Shown here in pieces: positions 494-13,076 of a DNA stretch of 37,479 nt. The position numbers and the translations under genes were made by a program. The notes below the pieces were generated by a model that was not told the origin of the DNA, ran no database searches, and saw only the letters and a program-made list of their open reading frames with translations. Within the stretch, counting starts at the first letter, position 1. Each line of letters begins with the position of its first letter. The stretch comes from Elusimicrobiota bacterium (GTDB lineage: Bacteria; Elusimicrobiota; Elusimicrobia; UBA1565; UBA9628). The DNA is taken from contig JACPFR010000038.1 of the NCBI GenBank assembly GCA_016182905.1, positions 1 to 37,479 of the forward strand, read 5' to 3'.

Positions 494-590
494 GGGCTCG
501 TGGTGTAACGGCAACACGCCGGCCTTATAAGCCGGTCAACACGCTCTCCTGATTAGAGAGTCGATGGAGGTTCGATTCCTCCCGGGCCTA
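494..590 (+). tRNA. Two-headed tRNA-Ile with two anticodon arms (UAU and GAU)
   Basis: The acceptor stem (494-500 with 583-589), D-arm (503-517, loop AACGGCA with GG) and T-arm (566-582, loop TTCGATT) are all well paired. Two complete anticodon arms lie between D- and T-arm: 519-535 (CCGGC, loop CTTATAA, anticodon TAT at 526-528) and 544-560 (CTCTC, loop CTGATTA, anticodon GAT at 551-553). Both have 5-bp stems, 7-nt loops and U33. The linker TCAACACG repeats the end of the D-arm (GCAACACG), so a 25-nt unit looks duplicated and diverged. Deleting either 25-nt unit leaves a perfect 72-nt tRNA-Ile. The two anticodons together read all three Ile codons. A73 is present and CCA is not encoded. It could be a fused pair, an intron-containing precursor, or a real two-anticodon RNA. 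Confidence 0.85.
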
Positions 591-608: not shown

Positions 609-683
609 GGCGGCCATGTTGTAAAGGCAGCAAGAGAGGCTGTGATCCTCTAGGTACCGGTTCGAATCCGGTTGGTCGCCCCA
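609..683 (+). tRNA. tRNA-His(GTG)
   Basis: This is a complete canonical cloverleaf. G at 609 is the extra G-1 typical of tRNA-His and faces C73 at 680. The acceptor is 610-616/673-679, the D-loop AAAGGCA, the anticodon GTG at 642-644 in loop CTGTGAT, and the T-loop TTCGAAT. CCA is encoded (681-683). It is one of the few array members with nothing unusual, so it probably works in translation. Confidence 0.97.
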
Positions 684-690
684 GATGTGA

Positions 691-762
691 GCCGCGGAAG
701 CTGAAAAGGCATAGCGTCCGGTTGAAAACCGGGAGGTCTCCGTTCGATTCGGAGCCGCGGCG
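691..762 (+). tRNA. tRNA-Phe(GAA)
   Basis: The cloverleaf has a perfect 7-bp acceptor (691-697/755-761), D-loop AAAAGGCA, anticodon GAA at 724-726 in loop TTGAAAA, and T-loop TTCGATT. The discriminator base is G (762), whereas tRNA-Phe normally has A73, and CCA is not encoded. It starts only 7 nt after tRNA-His, as expected of a polycistronic tRNA transcript. Confidence 0.92.
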
Positions 763-768
763 GATCTA

Positions 769-840
769 GCCGGTGAAGCTTTAGAAGATGAGCACCGGTC
801 TTTTAAACCGGGGAACCGGGAGCGTTACCCGGCGCCGGCA
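769..840 (+). tRNA. tRNA-Lys(TTT) with altered elbow (T-loop AGCGTTA)
   Basis: The acceptor (769-775/833-839), anticodon stem (795-799/807-811) and T-stem (816-820/828-832) are fully paired. The anticodon is TTT at 802-804 in loop CTTTTAA. The D-loop (around 781-790) lacks the G18G19 doublet, and the T-loop is AGCGTTA instead of TTCRANY. The stems are kept and only the tertiary-contact loops are changed, so this does not look like simple decay. A73 is present and CCA is not encoded. It is nearly a twin of the Lys(CTT) gene at 859-930. Confidence 0.85.
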
Positions 841-858
841 CGATACGAGACGCGAGAC

Positions 859-930
859 GGGCCCGAAGCTTTAGCAGATGAGCACCGGTCTCTTAAACCG
901 GGGAACCAGGCGCGATACCTGGCGGACCCA
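859..930 (+). tRNA. tRNA-Lys(CTT) with altered elbow (T-loop CGCGATA)
   Basis: The D- and anticodon arms are almost identical to those of the preceding Lys gene, with anticodon CTT at 892-894 in loop CTCTTAA. The T-stem is perfect (906-910/918-922) but the loop is CGCGATA, and the D-loop lacks GG. The acceptor has one C-A mismatch (862/926). The T-stem differs from the twin by several bases while staying paired, which argues for selection on structure. A73 is present, without encoded CCA. The same T-loop recurs in the Thr-like gene at 3337. Confidence 0.83.
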
Positions 931-1137
931 GATTTCCAGTTCTTTGACAATGTCGAGCGATATTAAAGAGCGCGACCCCCGAAGGGGGTCGACGCTGCCT
1001 CGACAACCAACTATTGAAGGGGTCCAAATTGATGCGAGGTCGCCGCGCAAGTGACGGCGCGACAACTCCGCATCGGCCGGCCGCGTCAGCGGCTCGCGGG
1101 CTTCGGCTCCCGCCCCCTTCTCGATTTTCGTCGTCAT
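931..1137 (+). other. Spacer in the tRNA array with stable hairpins
   Basis: There is no tRNA here. A perfect 8-bp hairpin lies at 973-991 (CGACCCCC-gaa-GGGGGTCG). A larger nested hairpin spans 1031-1074 (GATGCG with CGCATC outside, GTCGCCG with CGGCGCGAC inside). A TTGACA at 944-949 has no -10 box at a usable distance (TATTAA at 961 leaves only 11 nt), so I do not call a promoter. The hairpins may mark processing sites or further small RNAs. Confidence 0.4.
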
Positions 1138-1222
1138 GGTAGGGGTCCGAATGGACGAGGAGCTTCACTTGAAATGAAGTAGGCGGCCATGCCGCTTGGG
1201 GGTTCGATTCCTCTCCCTACCG
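1138..1222 (+). tRNA. tRNA-Ser(TGA)
   Basis: This is a class II tRNA with acceptor GGTAGGG/CCCTACC (1138-1144/1215-1221), a D-loop containing GG, and anticodon TGA at 1170-1172 in loop CTTGAAA. The long variable arm has GGCGGC paired to GCCGC, the T-loop is TTCGATT, and G73 is as expected for Ser. CCA is not encoded. It looks functional. Confidence 0.95.
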
Positions 1223-1232
1223 CCGATCGCGC

Positions 1233-1302
1233 AGCCTCGTGGCGTAATGAAGCGCGGGACCCTTCTAAGGTCCAAGTCCGGGTTCGACTCCCGGCGAGGC
1301 TT
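1233..1302 (+). tRNA. tRNA-Arg(TCT)
   Basis: The acceptor is AGCCTCG/CGAGGCT (1233-1239/1295-1301). Anticodon TCT lies at 1264-1266 in loop CTTCTAA with a perfect 5-bp stem, and the T-loop is TTCGACT. The D-loop is short (AATGAA) and lacks GG, the only array member with a canonical T-loop and no GG. The discriminator is T, unusual for Arg, and CCA is not encoded. Confidence 0.87.
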
Positions 1303-1310
1303 TTCGATTC

Positions 1311-1381
1311 GGGGTCGTGGTGAAACTGGATCACGGGACGCTCGCATCGTCCAGTCCCGGGGGCGGCACCCGGCGGCTCCA
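1311..1381 (+). tRNA. tRNA-Ala(CGC) with altered T-loop (GGCGGCA)
   Basis: The acceptor is GGGGTCG/CGGCTCC (1311-1317/1374-1380). The D-arm has loop AACTGGA (GG kept), and anticodon CGC lies at 1343-1345 in loop CTCGCAT. The T-stem CCGGG/CCCGG is perfect but its loop is GGCGGCA, which fits the NGCRNNA pattern of the Lys, Glu and Thr members. The usual tRNA-Ala G3-U70 pair can be drawn (G1313 with T1378). A73 is present, with CC but not A after it. Confidence 0.82.
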
Positions 1382-1388
1382 CCTTTGA

Positions 1389-1428
1389 CCGGGACTATCC
1401 TCAAGGATATTCGTGTCCGGATATTTTT
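1389..1428 (+). terminator. Terminator-like hairpin inside the array
   Basis: CCGG (1389-1392) pairs with CCGG (1417-1420), enclosing TATCCT-ca-AGGATA, followed by ATATTTTT. It could end transcripts covering the first eight tRNAs or act as a partial terminator. The stem is imperfect, so the call is moderate. Confidence 0.5.
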
Positions 1429-1429
1429 C

Positions 1430-1483
1430 GCGGGGTCATCCCCCCGCAGTCTGCCCTCGCCGGGCCGAGGACCCGGCGAGGGC
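1430..1483 (+). repeat. Two strong hairpins between tRNA-Ala and the Asp-like gene
   Basis: GCGGGG (1430-1435) pairs with CCCCGC (1442-1447). Next to it a perfect 12-bp inverted repeat (1453-1464 with 1472-1483) has loop CCGAGGA. Neither is followed by a T-run and neither forms a cloverleaf. They may be RNA processing or stabilising elements of the array transcript. Confidence 0.55.
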
Positions 1484-1501
1484 GGGGGCCGTCGGGTTTC
1501 T

Positions 1502-1577
1502 GGCTGCGAAACCGAAGAGACGAGGTGCTGGATCGTCGATCCAGTCGAAGCGGGTTCGAGTCCGACTCCCGCAGCCT
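1502..1577 (+). tRNA. Asp-like tRNA(GTC) with C33 and a disrupted T-arm
   Basis: The acceptor pairs perfectly (GGCTGCG/CGCAGCC, 1502-1508/1570-1576) and an anticodon arm is clear (CTGGA, loop TCGTCGA, TCCAG), giving anticodon GTC at 1535-1537 but with C at position 33. A canonical T-stem cannot form together with the acceptor. GCGGG could pair with CCCGC only by borrowing acceptor bases, leaving a 13-nt loop, as if six bases (CCGACT) had been inserted. The D-loop lacks GG. It is either a degenerate gene or a purposely non-canonical RNA. Confidence 0.6.
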
Positions 1578-1579
1578 TT

Positions 1580-1654
1580 GCCTTCGTGGTGAAATGGCAA
1601 TCACCTCCCGCTTCGAACGGGAAGTTCCGGGTTCAACTCCTGGCGAGGGCTCCA
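1580..1654 (+). tRNA. tRNA-Arg(TCG)
   Basis: The acceptor is GCCTTCG/CGAGGGC (1580-1586/1644-1650). The D-arm is GTGA/TCAC with GG in the loop, the anticodon TCG lies at 1613-1615 in loop CTTCGAA, and the T-loop is TTCAACT. The discriminator is T (1651) and CCA is encoded (1652-1654). It starts 2 nt after the Asp-like gene. Confidence 0.93.
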
Positions 1655-1655
1655 A

Positions 1656-1729
1656 TCCCCGGTGGCGTAACGGTAGCGTGTCTCTCCTACAAAGAGAAGG
1701 ACCTTGTTCGATTCAAGGCCGGGGAACCA
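1656..1729 (+). tRNA. tRNA-Val(TAC) with C33
   Basis: The acceptor is TCCCCGG/CCGGGGA (1656-1662/1719-1725), the D-loop AACGGTA, and the T-arm CCTTG-TTCGATT-CAAGG. CCA is encoded (1727-1729). The anticodon stem TCTCT/AGAGA is perfect and the loop is CCTACAA, so the anticodon is TAC (1688-1690) but position 33 is C rather than the nearly invariant U. Everything else looks like a working tRNA. Confidence 0.88.
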
Positions 1730-1733
1730 TTTT

Positions 1734-1825
1734 CCGGGTTAAGCGTTACGGAAGCGTACTCCCCTCGGACGGGAGAGGCGGGGGTTCGACGAACGGATGG
1801 CCTTCGGCTCCCTCAACCCAGACCA
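1734..1825 (+). tRNA. tRNA-Pro(CGG) with a 25-nt T-loop
   Basis: C1-G72 and A73, typical of bacterial tRNA-Pro, are present, and CCA is encoded at 1823-1825. The acceptor is CCGGGTT/AACCCAG (one C-A mismatch). The D-arm has GG and the anticodon is CGG at 1766-1768 in loop CTCGGAC. The T-stem GGGGG (1780-1784) pairs with CCCTC (1810-1814), but the loop is 25 nt: it begins TTCGA, then carries about 18 extra bases that can fold (GCC-TTC-GGC at 1800-1808), and ends CT. The encoded CCA fixes the 3' end, so the expansion is internal. An insertion removed by processing is conceivable, given rtcB downstream. Confidence 0.75.
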
Positions 1826-1829
1826 TATC

Positions 1830-1902
1830 GCCGATGTAGTCCAACGGCAGAGGCACCGCGGTCAGAACGCGGCTAGTGCAGGTTCGAATCCTGCTATCGG
1901 CA
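1830..1902 (+). tRNA. tRNA with Leu anticodon (CAG) on a short-variable-loop body
   Basis: The acceptor is GCCGATG/TATCGGC (1830-1836/1895-1901), the D-loop contains GG, the anticodon stem CCGCG/CGCGG has loop GTCAGAA, and the T-arm GCAGG-TTCGAAT-CCTGC is canonical. The anticodon CAG (1863-1865) would read the Leu codon CUG. Bacterial tRNA-Leu normally has a long variable arm, and here only about five bases are present. It may therefore be charged by another synthetase, or serve outside translation. A73 is present, and CCA is incomplete (ACCG). Confidence 0.85.
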
Positions 1903-1911
1903 CCGATCGAC

Positions 1912-1984
1912 GGCGGGAAGCGGTTCAGGGCAGCCGGGGAGTCTCATAAGCTCCTGATGGTGGGTTCGAGTCCCACTCCCGCTA
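1912..1984 (+). tRNA. tRNA with CAT anticodon (Met, or Ile2)
   Basis: The acceptor is GGCGGGA/TCCCGCT (1912-1918/1977-1983), the D-loop TCAGGGCA, and the anticodon stem GGAGT/GCTCC has loop CTCATAA with CAT at 1945-1947. The T-arm is GTGGG-TTCGAGT-CCCAC, with A73 and no CCA. The G-T first pair and the lack of the three G-C anticodon-stem pairs argue against initiator tRNA. It is elongator Met or a lysidine-modified Ile2 tRNA. Confidence 0.9.
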
Positions 1985-2080
1985 ATTTTCAGAATGATTC
2001 ACGTCATTCACATTCACAACTGTCGTTGACGACAGTTCGCCTGTGAACAAAGTGGATGGTCGGATTCAGAATGGATGCAC
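1985..2080 (+). other. Spacer with a perfect 9-bp hairpin
   Basis: AACTGTCGT (2018-2026) and ACGACAGTT (2029-2037) form a stem with a 2-nt loop. Flanking TTCACA (2013-2018) can pair with TGTGAA (2042-2047). The stretch is less GC-rich than its surroundings. There is no tRNA, T-run or promoter here. Confidence 0.45.
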
Positions 2081-2151
2081 ACCCCGTTCGTCTAAAAGAA
2101 GGATGTCCCGTTTTCAGCGGGAAGATGCGGTGGCAGGATCCGCACGGGGTA
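2081..2151 (+). tRNA. tRNA-Glu(TTC) with altered elbow
   Basis: The acceptor is ACCCCGT/ACGGGGT (2081-2087/2144-2150). The D-arm starts TTCGTCT as in ordinary tRNA-Glu, but its loop (AAAAGAA) lacks the GG doublet. The anticodon is TTC at 2113-2115 in loop TTTTCAG with a perfect stem. The T-stem GCGG/CCGC encloses 9 nt. With a U-U closing pair the loop is GGCAGGA, fitting the NGCRNNA pattern. CCA is not encoded. Confidence 0.82.
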
Positions 2152-2154
2152 GAC

Positions 2155-2230
2155 GGCCTCTTCGTCTAAAAAGGCAGGACGCCCGGCTCTCTACCGGGAA
2201 GCGGCGGAGCAGTACCGCCAGGGGTCACCA
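2155..2230 (+). tRNA. tRNA-Glu(CTC) with altered T-loop (AGCAGTA)
   Basis: The acceptor is GGCCTCT/AGGGGTC (2155-2161/2220-2226), followed by A73 and an encoded CCA (2228-2230). The D-loop AAAAAGGCA keeps GG. The anticodon is CTC at 2189-2191 in loop CTCTCTA. The T-stem GGCGG/CCGCC is perfect and its loop AGCAGTA belongs to the NGCRNNA class. The encoded CCA fixes the end, so the T-loop is certain. Confidence 0.85.
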
Positions 2231-2234
2231 GTTT

Positions 2235-2318
2235 GGGCTCGTGATGAAATGGAAGACATCCGCGGTCGAGAACCGCGGGCGCGAGACGCGCGTGGGGGTT
2301 CGATTCCCTCCGGGCCCA
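2235..2318 (+). tRNA. tRNA-Leu(GAG) with C33
   Basis: This is a class II tRNA with acceptor GGGCTCG/CGGGCCC (2235-2241/2311-2317), the same acceptor sequence as the two-headed Ile gene. It has a D-loop with GG, a long variable arm (GCGCG-aga-CGCGC) and T-loop TTCGATT. The anticodon stem CGCGG/CCGCG has loop TCGAGAA, so the anticodon is GAG (2268-2270) with C at position 33. A73 is present and CCA is not encoded. Confidence 0.88.
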
Positions 2319-2327
2319 GCAGATTTG

Positions 2328-2409
2328 ACGGGAGCGGCGCGCCCGCCGATGGTGAAGCGCGTACCGTGAGGATCGTCAAATGTCGGGGGTTCGACTCCCC
2401 CCTCCCGCA
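2328..2409 (+). tRNA. Degenerate tRNA-like element without a normal anticodon arm
   Basis: The acceptor (ACGGGAG/CTCCCGC with an A-C mismatch at the first pair) and a perfect canonical T-arm (GGGGG-TTCGACT-CCCCC, 2385-2401) are present. GCGC (2337-2340) can pair with GCGC (2357-2360) as a D-stem around a 16-nt loop. The 24 bases that should hold the anticodon arm do not form a 5-bp/7-nt arm. An alternative hairpin, CGAT..GGT/ACC..ATCG (2347-2375), is possible. No anticodon can be assigned. Confidence 0.6.
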
Positions 2410-2604: not shown

Positions 2605-2613
2605 GTGATGCGC

Positions 2614-3300
2614 ATGCTGTTCGTACGACTGCAGGTGATGGAGTACCAGAAGGCCGTCGTGTTCGCGGACGGCCGGCTGGAGAAGACGCTGGGTCCGGGC
2701 CGGTACATCCTGACCAAGTACTTCCCGCGGCGCGAGGCGTATCTGTTCGACGTGCGCCTGACGTCGCTGGCGGTGACGGGTCAGGAGATACTGACCAAGG
2801 ACAAGATGCCGGTCCGCATGAACCTGACGGCGCTGTACCGGCTGCAGGATCCGGCGAAGGCGGTGACGAAGGTCCAGGCGTACACGACGTATCTGTACGA
2901 GCAGCTGCAGCTGGCGGCTCGGGCGATCGTGGCGGACCTGACGCTGGACGAGCTGCTGGCGAAGAAGACGGCGCTGACCGACGAGCTGACGGACAAGGTC
3001 CGACCGCTCGCGGCGGAGGCCGGCCTCGAGCTGGCGTCGTGCGGCGTGAAGGACGTCGTGCTCCCGGGCGAGATCAAGAACCTGATGATCAAGTCGGTGG
3101 AGGCCGAGCAGGCGGCGAAGGCCGCGCTGATCACGGCTCGCGAGGACCTGGCGGCGACGCGGGTCCGCGCGAACACGGCCAAGCTGTACGCGGACCCGGC
3201 GATGCTCCGGCTCAAGGAGCTGGAGATCATGGCCGAGTTCGCGAAGAAGACGGGCAACACCTTCATGTTCGGCCAGGCGCCGTTCCTGAAGGCGCCGTAA
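2614..3300 (+). CDS. SPFH/Band-7 (slipin-like) protein, soluble type
   Basis: The 228-residue protein matches the SPFH/Band-7 domain of slipins: an early GRLEKTLGPGRY segment, a beta-rich middle (TSLAVTGQEILTKDKMPVRM), the Tyr/Leu-rich helix with LTLDELL, and an alanine/glutamate-rich coiled helix (AEQAAKAALITAREDLAATR) to the end. Slipins normally begin with a hydrophobic hairpin of about 30 residues. Here the SPFH domain starts within ten residues of the N-terminus, so the protein is probably cytosolic or only peripheral. SPFH proteins form ring-like oligomers and scaffolds. Placed between tRNA-like genes and rtcB, it may act as scaffold for RNA repair (inference, in line with published SPFH-RtcB linkages as I recall). 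I chose ATG 2614 because GAGG at 2602-2605 is 8 nt upstream. ATG 2608 and GTG 2605 are alternatives. Confidence 0.88.
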   Translation: MLFVRLQVMEYQKAVVFADGRLEKTLGPGRYILTKYFPRREAYLFDVRLTSLAVTGQEILTKDKMPVRMNLTALYRLQDPAKAVTKVQAYTTYLYEQLQLAARAIVADLTLDELLAKKTALTDELTDKVRPLAAEAGLELASCGVKDVVLPGEIKNLMIKSVEAEQAAKAALITAREDLAATRVRANTAKLYADPAMLRLKELEIMAEFAKKTGNTFMFGQAPFLKAP

Positions 3301-3336: not shown

Positions 3337-3407
3337 GCCGCCATAGCTCAAAAGTAGAGCTCCCGCCTCGTAGCCGGGAGACCTCGGCGCGATACCGAGT
3401 GGCGGCT
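3337..3407 (+). tRNA. Thr-like tRNA(CGT) with altered elbow between slipin gene and rtcB
   Basis: The acceptor GCCGCCA/TGGCGGC (3337-3343/3400-3406) and D-stem GCTC/GAGC are perfect. The D-loop AAAAGTA lacks GG. The anticodon stem has four pairs plus a C-C mismatch next to loop CTCGTAG, giving anticodon CGT (3369-3371). The T-stem CTCGG/CCGAG is perfect with loop CGCGATA, identical to the Lys(CTT) gene 2.4 kb upstream. The discriminator is T and CCA is not encoded. Its position ties the altered-elbow class to the repair genes: it may be the cognate RNA of the slipin-RtcB pair. Confidence 0.8.
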
Positions 3408-3446
3408 ACGATTTTCGCCTGTTATCCTAAGAGTAAAGAGGAAGCC

Positions 3447-4619
3447 ATGCCGATCAAGAAGATCGTGGACGCGCGCGTGCCGGTGAAGATCTGGGCCGAC
3501 GACGTCGAGCCGGACGCGCTCAAGCAGCTCAAGAACATCGCCGCCCTGCCGTTCGTGTTCAAGCACGTGGCGGCGATGCCGGACGTGCACCTGGGCAAGG
3601 GCGCGACCGTCGGCTCGGTGATCGCGACCGAGAACGCCGTCGTGCCGGCCGCCGTCGGCGTGGACATCGGCTGCGGCATGTGCGCGGTGAAGCTCGAGGG
3701 CGTGACGTCCTCGCGCCTGGAAGGGAAGCTGGCGGAGCTGCGCTCCAACATCGAGCGCGCGGTCCCGGTCGGGTTCCATGAGAACCGTGACCCGGACGCT
3801 TATAGCCGGAATTGGGCGCGCTGGGCCGATTTCGGAGGGCTTCACGAGCGCGTGCAGGGGCTGAAAGGGAAGGCCCTGCGCCAACTCGGCTCGCTCGGCG
3901 GCGGGAACCACTTCATCGAGGTGTGTCTCGACTCCGCGGACGGCGTCTGGGTGATGCTCCACTCCGGCTCGCGCAACATCGGAAAGAGCCTCGCGGAGCA
4001 TCACATCGACTCGGCCAAGGGGCTGATGCGGAAGATGTTCGTGTCCCTCCCGGACCCGGACCTCGCCTACTTCGCCGCCGGGACCCCGGAGTACGACGCG
4101 TACCTGCGCGACCTGCGCTGGGCGCAGGACTACGCCCTGATGAACCGCGAGGTGATGATGGGGCGGGTCCTCGAGCAGGTAGGCCGCGCCGTCGGGGTCG
4201 AGCCGAAGGCGGAGCTGTCGGTGAACTGCCATCACAACTTCGCGGCGATGGAGCATCACTTCGGGCGCGACGTGCTCGTGACCCGCAAGGGGGCGGTGCG
4301 CGCGCGTAAGGGAGACATGGGCATCATCCCGGGCTCGATGGGGACGAAGTCCTACATCGTGCGCGGAAAGGGCGAGCCGGAGTCGTTCGACTCGTGCTCG
4401 CACGGGGCGGGACGCCGGATGTCCCGGAACGAGGCTCGGCGGCGCTTCGGGACCGCGGACCTGCGCAAGCAGACCGAGGGCGTGGAGTGCCGCAAGGACG
4501 AGGGGGTCGTCGATGAGATCCCGGCCGCCTACAAGCCGATCGAGCGGGTCATGGCGGACCAGAGCGACCTCGTCGAGATCGTCGCGGAGATCAAGCAGGT
4601 CCTCTGCGTGAAGGGCTGA
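3447..4619 (+). CDS. rtcB: RtcB RNA 3'-phosphate/5'-OH ligase
   Basis: RtcB joins RNA 2',3'-cyclic phosphate or 3'-phosphate ends to 5'-OH ends using GTP and manganese, so it reseals cleaved tRNAs. All active-site elements are visible in the 390-residue protein: D73 and C76 (VDIGCGM), N154-H155 (GGGNHFIE), H172 (LHSGSRN), H262/H263 (NCHHNF) and the guanylylated H319 (SCSHGAGR). The length is near the family norm (E. coli about 408). ATG 3447 is preceded by AGAGGAAG. The frame is open further upstream, but that stretch overlaps the slipin gene and the tRNA-like gene in another frame and is not RtcB. No archease, RtcA or RtcR is in the window. Linkage to slipin and a tRNA array points to repair of cleaved tRNAs. 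Maturation of the odd array tRNAs is an alternative. Confidence 0.97.
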   Translation: MPIKKIVDARVPVKIWADDVEPDALKQLKNIAALPFVFKHVAAMPDVHLGKGATVGSVIATENAVVPAAVGVDIGCGMCAVKLEGVTSSRLEGKLAELRSNIERAVPVGFHENRDPDAYSRNWARWADFGGLHERVQGLKGKALRQLGSLGGGNHFIEVCLDSADGVWVMLHSGSRNIGKSLAEHHIDSAKGLMRKMFVSLPDPDLAYFAAGTPEYDAYLRDLRWAQDYALMNREVMMGRVLEQVGRAVGVEPKAELSVNCHHNFAAMEHHFGRDVLVTRKGAVRARKGDMGIIPGSMGTKSYIVRGKGEPESFDSCSHGAGRRMSRNEARRRFGTADLRKQTEGVECRKDEGVVDEIPAAYKPIERVMADQSDLVEIVAEIKQVLCVKG

Positions 4620-10898: not shown

Positions 10899-13076
10899 TC
10901 ACATCAGGAACAGCATCTCGCGGTACTTCGGAAGCGGCCACGTGGCGGCCGGCATCAGAAGCTCGAGCCCGTCGACCTCGACGCGGATCTTGTCGAAGTA
11001 GGGCTTGACCTTCTCGCAGTACGCGAGGGCCTTCTTCTCGACGTCGGCCTCCGCGTCGGCCTTGGCCAGCGCGGCCTGGAGATCGTCGACGCCGGTCAGC
11101 GCCCGCTCCACCTTCTCCGAGATCGAGCGCAGCAAAGACGCCTGGGCCGGCGCGTTGATGCCGTTCGACGAGAGCGAGGCCAAGGTCTTCGACAGCTCGT
11201 TCTGGTACTCGACGACGGCCGGGACGAACAGGGTCCCCGTCATCTCGAGGATCAGCTTGGCCTCGATGTCGATGTCCTTGGCGTACTTCTCGAGGAGGAT
11301 GTGGTAGCGGGAGTGCGTCTCCTCCTCGGTGAGCACGCCGAGCTTGGCGAACAGGGCGACGGACTTCTTCAGCGCGAAGCCCTTGAGGGCCGCGGGCGTG
11401 GTCTTCTGGTTCGGCAAGCCGCGCTTCTCGGCTTCCTTGACCCACTCTTCCGAGTAGTTGTTGCCCTCGAAGCAGACCGCCTTCGATTCCGCGTAGTACT
11501 GGCGCAGGACGCTCGTCACGGCTTCCTTGAGGGTCTTGCCCTTCTTGAGCGCCGCGTCGATGTCCTTCTTCGTCGCGATGAGCTGGCCCGCGACGATGGT
11601 GTTGAGGGTCGACATCGGGATGGCGTTGTTCGCGGACGCGCCGACGGCGCGGAACTCGAACTTGTTGCCGGTGAAGGCGAAGGGCGAGGTCCGGTTGCGG
11701 TCGGTGTTGTCCTTGATGACCGCCGGGATGTGGTCGATGCCCAGCGAGATCCACTGCGGGTCGGTCCCCTTCGAGGTCACGCCCTTCTCGAGGTCGTTGA
11801 GGACGCTCGTGAGCTGGGCGCCGAGGAAGATCGACATGATCGCCGGCGGGGCCTCGTTCGCGCCGAGGCGGTGGTCGTTGCCGGAGGAGGCGATCGCCGC
11901 GCGCAGCAGCAGTCCGTGCGTGTGGACGGCCTTGATGATCGAGACCAGGAAGGTCAGGAACTGCAGGTTCTCGTGCGGCGTCGCGCCCGGCGAGAGCAGG
12001 TTTTTACCGGTATCGGTCCCAAGAGACCAATTATTGTGCTTACCCGACCCGTTGACGCCCGCGAAGGGCTTCTCGTAGGTCAGCGCGGCGAGACCGTGGC
12101 GCTCCGCGACCCGCTTCATGATGTCCATGACGAGCTGGTTGTGGTCGACGGCGACGTTGGCTTCCTCGAAGACGGGGGCGCACTCGAACTGATGCGGGGC
12201 GACCTCGTTATGGCGCGTCTTCAGCGGGATGCCGAGCTTGAAGCACTCGCTCTCGAAGTCCGTCATGAAGGAGAGTACCCGGTCCTTGATGGCGCCGAAG
12301 TAATGATCCTCGAGCTGCTGGCCCTTCGGGGAGGAGGCCCCGAACAAGGTGCGGCCGGCGAGAAGGAGGTCGGGGCGCGCGTCGTAGTACTCCTTGTCGA
12401 TCAGGAAGTACTCCTGCTCGGCGCCGAGCGTCGCGACGACCTTCTTCGCGTCGCTCGAGAACAGAGACAGGACGCCGAGCGCCGCGTTGTTGAGCGCGGT
12501 GATCGAGCGCAGCAGCGGGGTCTTCGTGTCCAAAGCGTGCCCGGTGTACGAGACGAAGCAGGTCGGGATGCACAAGGTCGAGCCGGTCTCTCCCTCGAGG
12601 ATGAACGCGGGCGAGGTCGGATCCCACGCCGTGTAGCCGCGCGCCTCGAACGTCACGCGCAGGCCGCCCGACGGGAACGAGGACGCGTCCGGCTCCGCCT
12701 GGGTGAGCATCGCGCCGGTGAAGGTCTCGAGGACCTTGCCGTGGCCGGTCGGGTCGATGAACGCGTCGTGCTTCTCGGCGGTGGCGCCGGTCAGCGGCTG
12801 GAACCAGTGGCAATAGTGGGTGGCGCCCTTCTGGATCGCCCACGTCTTCATGGCCGAGGCCACGGCGTTGGCGGAGTCGAGGTCGAGGCGTTCGCCCTTC
12901 GCGGCGGCTTCCTGGACCTTGCGGAAGGTCTCCTTGGGCAGGAGAAGCTTCATCGTCTCGAGTCCGAACACGTTGCAGCCGTAGTAGTCGGAGACCTTGG
13001 GGCGGGCGGGAGCGGCGGAGCGGGACTTGGACTTGGCGGTCATCGGATTCACGGCTCCATGCTGTCTGGGGGTCAT
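10899..13076 (-). CDS. glnN: Glutamine synthetase, type III
   Basis: This ATP-dependent enzyme makes glutamine from glutamate and ammonia. The 725-residue length and motifs ([10 protein letters not shown] near the start, [65 protein letters not shown]) identify the large GSIII family found in Bacteroidetes, cyanobacteria and some other phyla rather than GSI. The start at 13076 has GGAGGG a few bases upstream. A second ATG at 13043 is possible. It is head to head with the large membrane protein gene. No GlnB/GlnK or AmtB is in the window. Confidence 0.97.

Follow-up and report, generated by a model that had tools for sequence, protein, structure and literature searches.

Isoleucine tRNA genes with two anticodon arms in Elusimicrobia, other bacteria and phages

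We have found that the tRNA gene at positions 494-590 of an Elusimicrobia contig is a real and overlooked kind of isoleucine tRNA gene, one with two anticodon arms, and that this two-arm architecture is old and widespread. The window, by which we mean the whole stretch of DNA analysed, is an entire 37,479-bp contig of a 4.0-Mb genome in 63 contigs. An earlier note, made from the sequence of the window, had proposed two genuine anticodon arms here, UAU and then GAU, and the match to the Rfam tRNA model, the homologues and the covariation in both arms bear this out. The parts of the gene are as follows; the percentages come from an alignment of 19 sequences of the window's type (type I, see below) that was fitted to the proposed structure, which favours that structure.

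494-590, forward strand: two-headed tRNA-Ile gene, 97 nt, CCA not encoded (Rfam RF00005, 59.4 bits; covariance model R1, 116.3 bits)
494-500, forward strand: acceptor stem 5' strand, partner 583-589 (7 pairs; helix 1, 99.2% of alignment cells paired)
503-506, forward strand: D-stem 5' strand GUGU, the complement of both 514-517 and 539-542 (covariation)
512-536, forward strand: unit 1, 25 nt, consisting of the D-loop end, the D-stem 3' strand ACAC (514-517) and arm 1 (sequence)
519-535, forward strand: anticodon arm 1, loop CUUAUAA, anticodon UAU at 526-528, with U33 and A37 (helix 3, 93.7% paired)
537-561, forward strand: unit 2, 25 nt, consisting of a repeat of CAACACGC and arm 2 (sequence)
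539-542, forward strand: the D-stem 3' strand ACAC a second time (in the homologues it covaries with 503-506)
544-560, forward strand: anticodon arm 2, loop CUGAUUA, GAU at 551-553, with U37 and C29-G41 (helix 4, 95.7% paired)
566-582, forward strand: T arm, loop UUCGAUU (helix 5, 97.9% paired)
583-590, forward strand: acceptor stem 3' strand and discriminator A73 at 590 (Rfam tRNA model)

Both anticodon arms are fully paired, with 5-bp stems and 7-nt loops (CCGGC-CUUAUAA-GCCGG and CUCUC-CUGAUUA-GAGAG); the D stem pairs 503-506 with 514-517, and the 7-bp acceptor stem (494-500/583-589) has G1-U72. The duplication of a 25-nt unit that had been read from the sequence is there, and CAACACGC is the shared start of 512-536 and 537-561. 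The canonical cloverleaf has one anticodon arm and this gene has two covarying ones: the Rfam model gives the gene a score of 59.4 bits (E 1.5e-10), above its gathering threshold of 29, with the second arm as a 27-nt insertion, and ARAGORN calls no tRNA at 494-590. Isoleucine identity bases are present as A73 and C4-G69, together with C29-G41, GAU and A38 in arm 2, but the gene has G12-C23 and U37. Read from the sequence, removal of either 25-nt unit leaves a perfect cloverleaf, as had been claimed; this is true of the window but not of the family as a whole. It is possible that a fusion of two genes was the remote origin of the architecture.

A DNA search for the window gene took in 58 related genomes, and bacterial relatives are now known from five other Elusimicrobia MAGs, one Eremiobacterota MAG (L058) and one Blastocatellia MAG (L062). 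The gene of G003 is identical to that of the window, that of G043 has a compensated stem (CUCGC/GCGAG), that of G027 has the loop CUGAUAA, that of G035 has a different D arm, and that of G007, with loops CUUAUGA and CUGGUGA, has GGU instead of GAU as its second anticodon. The covariance search of related genomes that had been suggested as a check, run with a model (R1) built from five Elusimicrobia homologues, finds two-headed genes in 6 of 56 genomes of the order, at 100-116 bits, with every other tRNA at about 54 bits or less, a gap that chance does not come near to explaining. No further two-headed gene was found among 341 genomes of the phylum with strict filters that may miss weak cases, a class-wide search around the Eremiobacterota MAG (117 genomes) returned the known gene only, and none was found in 5,426 E. 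coli genomes. A two-loop DNA pattern run over 84,980 species genomes returned L058 and L062 as real members; its matches in Latescibacterota (L059 and L065) are due to chance, since the tRNA model does not match them.

The architecture is also found in viruses. Two-headed genes occur in many IMG/VR contigs, several of them 345-533 kb long, to which the two-loop pattern also led, and BLAST with one viral gene led to the cultured phages PhiM1 of Pectobacterium, WD615, Pylo and River4 of Vibrio, KP13-26 of Klebsiella, and ESCO41 and ETEP102 of E. coli, to which a second query added BEK6, CEB_EC3a, Opt-719, Opt-79, 12VC501, Arno162, Wc4 and others. Gene finders miss or mislabel these genes: a few are annotated in the phage records, as plain tRNA-Ile, and most are unannotated. 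In PhiM1 the two-headed gene is the sole tRNA of the phage, and since its relative Nobby has no such gene at the corresponding place, the gene, its CCA and a few bases constitute a discrete insertion. Our main set holds 74 distinct two-headed genes, with A73 in 73 and CCA encoded in 59. A loop-agnostic search for two-headed tRNAs for other amino acids returned only mis-scans and apparent class II tRNAs, and we found no description of the family in the open-access literature, most subscription journals lying outside the scope of that search.

Covariation argues strongly that both anticodon arms are maintained by compensatory change. In the alignment, which its fitting to the proposed structure favours, 93.7% of cells are paired in the arm 1 helix and 95.7% in the arm 2 helix, against 38-51% for the whole structure in slid controls, and changes on both sides are seen in four of the five pairs of arm 1 and in all five of arm 2. 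This supports divergence of the two stems under selection for pairing, as the earlier note had supposed. An alternative D pairing, of the 5' strand with the copy in the linker, has moderate support, weaker than that for the arms: 77.8% of cells are paired (26-60% in slid controls), the covariation score is 0.371 against 0.245 in shuffles, with 2 of 500 shuffles scoring as high, and a test in which linkers were permuted among D strands puts Watson-Crick pairing at p 0.004. By nearest-neighbour energies, form B of the window tRNA is about 3 kcal/mol less stable than form A. Pairing between the loops of the two arms can be set aside, since UUAU/AUAA suits CAGAUAA loops and fails on the CUGAUUA of the window.

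The 74 genes fall into two types. Type I (21 genes, the window included) has a normal D stem adjoining arm 1; in type II (53 genes) the D region reads UUGCUAAURUUGG and the D-stem 3' strand, AAGC, stands in the linker beside arm 2, which makes the D loop the place where arm 1 is inserted. One type II gene, L112, has a compensated change from G10-C25 to U10-A25. Linkers between the arms are 5-11 nt long. Of 17 distinct type I linkers, nine repeat the D-stem 3' strand with matching changes (GUGU with ACAC, GCUU with AAGC, GCUC with GAGC, GUUU with AAAC) and eight do not; a doubtful gene, L186 (arm 2 loop CAGAUCG), is counted among the 21 but was excluded from the linker and C29-G41 tests. With the repeated strand lying ahead of arm 2 and covarying, the window and about half of its subgroup could use one arm or the other as the anticodon arm.

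The loops of the two arms keep different features. Because the first search patterns had selected both loops, we turned to sets in which at most one of the two was fixed. In a set fixed on the D loop and T arm only, arm 1 has UAU, U33 and A37, and arm 2 has GAU with A33, in 38 of 38 distinct genes; in a set fixed on arm 1 and the T arm only, arm 2 has GAU in 45 of 45. Constraint therefore acts on the GAU of arm 2 while U33, which the anticodon turn requires, has not been preserved there. Across the family arm 1 always has U33, UAU and a purine at 37. Arm 2 usually has A38, has U33 in only 5 of 74 genes (the window is one of the five), and in type I has a pyrimidine at 37 in 16 of 21 genes, U in 15. 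The earlier claim that each loop has U33 and a purine-rich 3' side thus holds in the window as to U33 in both arms and fails as to arm 2, where 37 is U and not a purine. The commonest arm 2 loop in enterobacterial and Vibrio phages is CAGAUAA, which differs from the CUGAUAA of E. coli tRNA-Ile1 at U33 only.

The identity set of bacterial tRNA-Ile comprises A73, C4-G69, U12-A23, C29-G41, G34, A35, U36, A37 and A38, with t6A37 a strong determinant for bacterial-type IleRS and C29-G41 a minor one in E. coli (PMC9976931). The C29-G41 pair was never used for selection and so provides an independent test: it is present in 24 of 36 distinct arms 2 and 4 of 42 distinct arms 1 (p 1e-7, a value that serves only as a guide and is overstated, because the sequences are related). 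Cultured gammaproteobacterial phages at first yielded five distinct genes, and in all five the pair is present in arm 2 and absent from arm 1. Single-headed UAU tRNAs are common in viral contigs of the same collection (86 distinct genes in the first 120 matches listed), and 39 of these 86 have C29-G41; there one arm must do both jobs.

These patterns lead us to suggest that the two jobs of an anticodon arm may be divided, arm 1 decoding AUA and arm 2 serving as a handle for IleRS. We hold this reading tentatively and would stop short of calling it probable; we favour it because arm 2 carries most of the anticodon-arm identity, arm 1 has what the ribosome needs, and C29-G41 is split between them. 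Arm 1, with U33, UAU and a purine at 37, would be the decoding arm, and arm 2, with GAU, usually A38, and C29-G41, would present the bases that bacterial isoleucyl-tRNA synthetase reads without being built for decoding, so that the host IleRS, for which UAU would be a poor anticodon, could charge the tRNA by way of arm 2. Most bacteria otherwise have no UAU anticodon (PMC8007984), and E. coli IleRS does not charge tRNA-Ile2 with an unmodified C34 (PMC11938285). We infer from sequence that the two-headed tRNA would be transcribed and charged, would switch between forms and would decode AUA. Against a division of labour stands the U37 in arm 2 of the window and of most type I genes, which conflicts with the need of IleRS for t6A37. 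Further weak points are that the bacterial hosts searched have TilS and that PhiM1 does not use AUA more than its relative Nobby (figures below). The idea that UAU tRNAs must be two-headed is rejected, single-headed ones being common in viral contigs; two heads are thus not always needed, and UAU can somewhere be charged without arm 2.

The window and about half of its subgroup might switch between two forms, one for charging with arm 2 as the anticodon arm and one for decoding with arm 1 in that place, since the D-stem 3' strand is present twice. It is somewhat unlikely, in our judgement, that the tRNA has two states in this full sense, IleRS reading GAU in one fold and, once the D-stem partner is exchanged, the ribosome reading AUA through UAU in the other. 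Such a switch cannot be general, because about half of type I lacks the D-strand repeat and type II would have a normal D stem in the charging form only. If true, it would be a third bacterial solution to AUA, besides lysidine-type modification and a UAU-adapted IleRS.

An unlikely alternative, though the one that we weighed most seriously, is that the tRNA is nuclease bait or a nuclease-resistant substitute, offering two Ile-type loops, or surviving by means of altered ones, and so protecting translation during infection. Phages are reported to have tRNAs whose altered anticodon loops let them escape defences that target tRNAs (PMC10264068), and the gene occurs in phages and in tRNA arrays, which have been called putative anti-defence systems (PMC12803027); the window gene is near the RNA-repair gene rtcB, and an arm 2 that has lost U33 could stop a nuclease from acting. 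PhiM1, with the two-headed gene as its only tRNA, does not use AUA more: the codon makes up 11.4% of its isoleucine codons and 14.9% of those of Nobby, which lacks the tRNA, so codon compensation in PhiM1 is rejected. On the other hand, complete acceptor, D and T arms, A73 and an encoded CCA point to charging, which bait would not need, and protection from nucleases predicts neither the fixed order of UAU and GAU nor the C29-G41 split.

It is distinctly unlikely that arm 2 is just a structural element, a long variable arm of an unusual kind whose GAU is a remnant of duplication. In several type I genes (L108, L127, L095 and L207) the linker has no copy of the D strand, so that arm 2 can only be an extra arm, but GAU is kept in all of the 45 and all of the 38 unselected genes while the stem sequence changes freely.

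Highly doubtful is the proposal that a pre-tRNA loses one 25-nt unit to become a UAU or a GAU tRNA by alternative splicing, perhaps with RtcB. Removal of either unit from the window gene leaves a perfect cloverleaf, and rtcB lies 2.9 kb downstream, on the same strand, as the earlier note had stated. In a PF01139 search of 11 genomes or records, however, rtcB adjoins the two-headed gene only in the window and, as a truncated remnant, in G007; the search found no RtcB in G003, in the Eremiobacterota MAG or in the viral records, and in others the gene lies elsewhere, the MAGs and contigs being incomplete. We therefore reject RtcB as an obligatory partner, and splicing with it is unsupported as a general mechanism. 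A type II tRNA without arm 2 would moreover have no normal D stem, and without arm 1 would be left with a GAU arm with A33. We know of no bacterial enzymes that would make the cuts for such a splice.

It is very improbable that both arms decode and that the tRNA so reads every isoleucine codon. The window arm 2 does have U33 and GAU, and both D-stem pairings are possible there at the energy difference given above, but arm 2 has no U33 in 69 of 74 genes and usually no purine at 37 in type I, that of G007 is GGU, and some phages carry a separate single-headed tRNA-Ile(GAU). The suggestion in the earlier note that the two arms together read AUA, AUC and AUU is thus without support. An assembly error, such as had been envisaged at 519-560, or a decayed pseudogene is hardly conceivable: the gene is on a MAG contig and escapes ARAGORN, but independent MAGs, viral contigs and cultured phage genomes in number share its architecture, with compensatory stem changes.

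To return to a division of labour between the arms, the family can be set beside several known tRNAs. Arm 2 shares G34, A35 and U36, and often C29-G41, with bacterial tRNA-Ile(GAU), and the gene shares A73 with this tRNA and with the lysidine-bearing tRNA-Ile2(CAU), but it adds a complete UAU arm, and arm 2 usually lacks U33 and in type I usually lacks A37. Single-headed tRNA-Ile(UAU) occurs in Mycoplasma mobile and Lactobacillus plantarum (PMC9976931, PMC11938285) and in many phages, the phage form having the same CUUAUAA loop as arm 1; all of these have one arm, whereas the two-headed genes have a GAU arm in addition and have largely lost C29-G41 from arm 1. Class II tRNAs (Leu, Ser, Tyr) likewise have an extra hairpin between the anticodon and T arms, but in place of Leu/Ser/Tyr identity and a hairpin close to the anticodon stem we find Ile-type anticodons, a 5-bp stem with a conserved 7-nt GAU loop, and a linker of 5-11 nt in which roughly half of type I has the D strand repeated; type II has arm 1 within the D loop. 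A chloroplast tRNA-Ser(GCU) has been described in the same words, as having 'two anticodon arms' (PMC10228390), but that is a long tRNA-Ser in an alternative fold, and the part of the description available to us has no duplicated unit or conserved second anticodon. The usual assumption in tRNA biology is that one anticodon arm satisfies both synthetase and ribosome, and a widespread family that shares out these requirements between two arms, half to each, would show the roles to be separable within one natural tRNA. The two-headed tRNA would also provide a direct test of how AUA can be read as isoleucine without lysidine, one open to immediate use because the gene is present in cultured E. coli phages.

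In the window the two-headed gene opens a dense run of about 16 tRNA genes (494-2409), a bacterial tRNA array unit, with the following neighbours.

610-2409, forward strand: rest of the array, with tRNAs for His, Phe, Lys, Lys, Ser, Arg, Arg, Cys, Leu, Met/Ile2 (CAU), Glu, Glu, Leu and others (ARAGORN, Rfam, sequence)
2605-3300, forward strand: slipin/SPFH (Band_7) protein gene beside the array (Pfam PF01145, E 2.2e-29)
3447-4619, forward strand: rtcB RNA ligase gene, given here as context for the window tRNA (Pfam PF01139, E 1.4e-127)

The array units of Mycobacterium and the trn operon of Anabaena are similarly dense runs of unusual tRNAs, but we found no two-headed tRNA described there. The trn repressor of Anabaena represses rtcB as well, and the genes raised in its mutant include one for a slipin (PMC10272220). 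Array tRNAs at 769-840, 859-930, 2085-2156, 2160-2228 and 3337-3407 (two Lys, two Glu and one further tRNA whose anticodon is probably CGU) lack the TTCGA motif in their T loops, which read AGCGUUA, CGCGAUA, AGCAGUA and UGGCAGGAU, which is probably why ARAGORN misses them. An Asp-type tRNA at about 1505-1577 has the loop UCGUCGA, with C33 replacing U33, and the array ends (2410-2460) in an apparently truncated tRNA with acceptor, D and CAU anticodon arms and no T arm.

We also made several minor observations in the other genomes. Some contigs that carry a two-headed gene also have single-headed phage tRNA-Ile(GAU) genes with C33 and the loop CCGAUAA (L147/L148, 1229-1304; L070, 39-109). The records of Pseudomonas phage PsgS01F (L250) and E. 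coli phage UALMA_PCEc3 (L243), both of 44,679 bp and with the same tRNA, are perhaps one genome under two names. An unannotated tRNA-like sequence of about 120 nt with a very long middle part lies at about 521-650 of L242, from Salmonella phage Seszw_1, with similar matches in about 65 Salmonella phage records, and a 532-kb IMG/VR contig (L067) has two tRNA genes (3372-3473 and 12516-12645) with intron-like insertions of about 30-60 nt in the anticodon arm. The truncated rtcB that follows the array of G007 (L022, 1885-2118) corresponds to the last fifth of the family profile only, and in the array of G043 a bacterial class A RNase P RNA lies between tRNA genes (L023, 978-1304, reverse strand, 121.6 bits).
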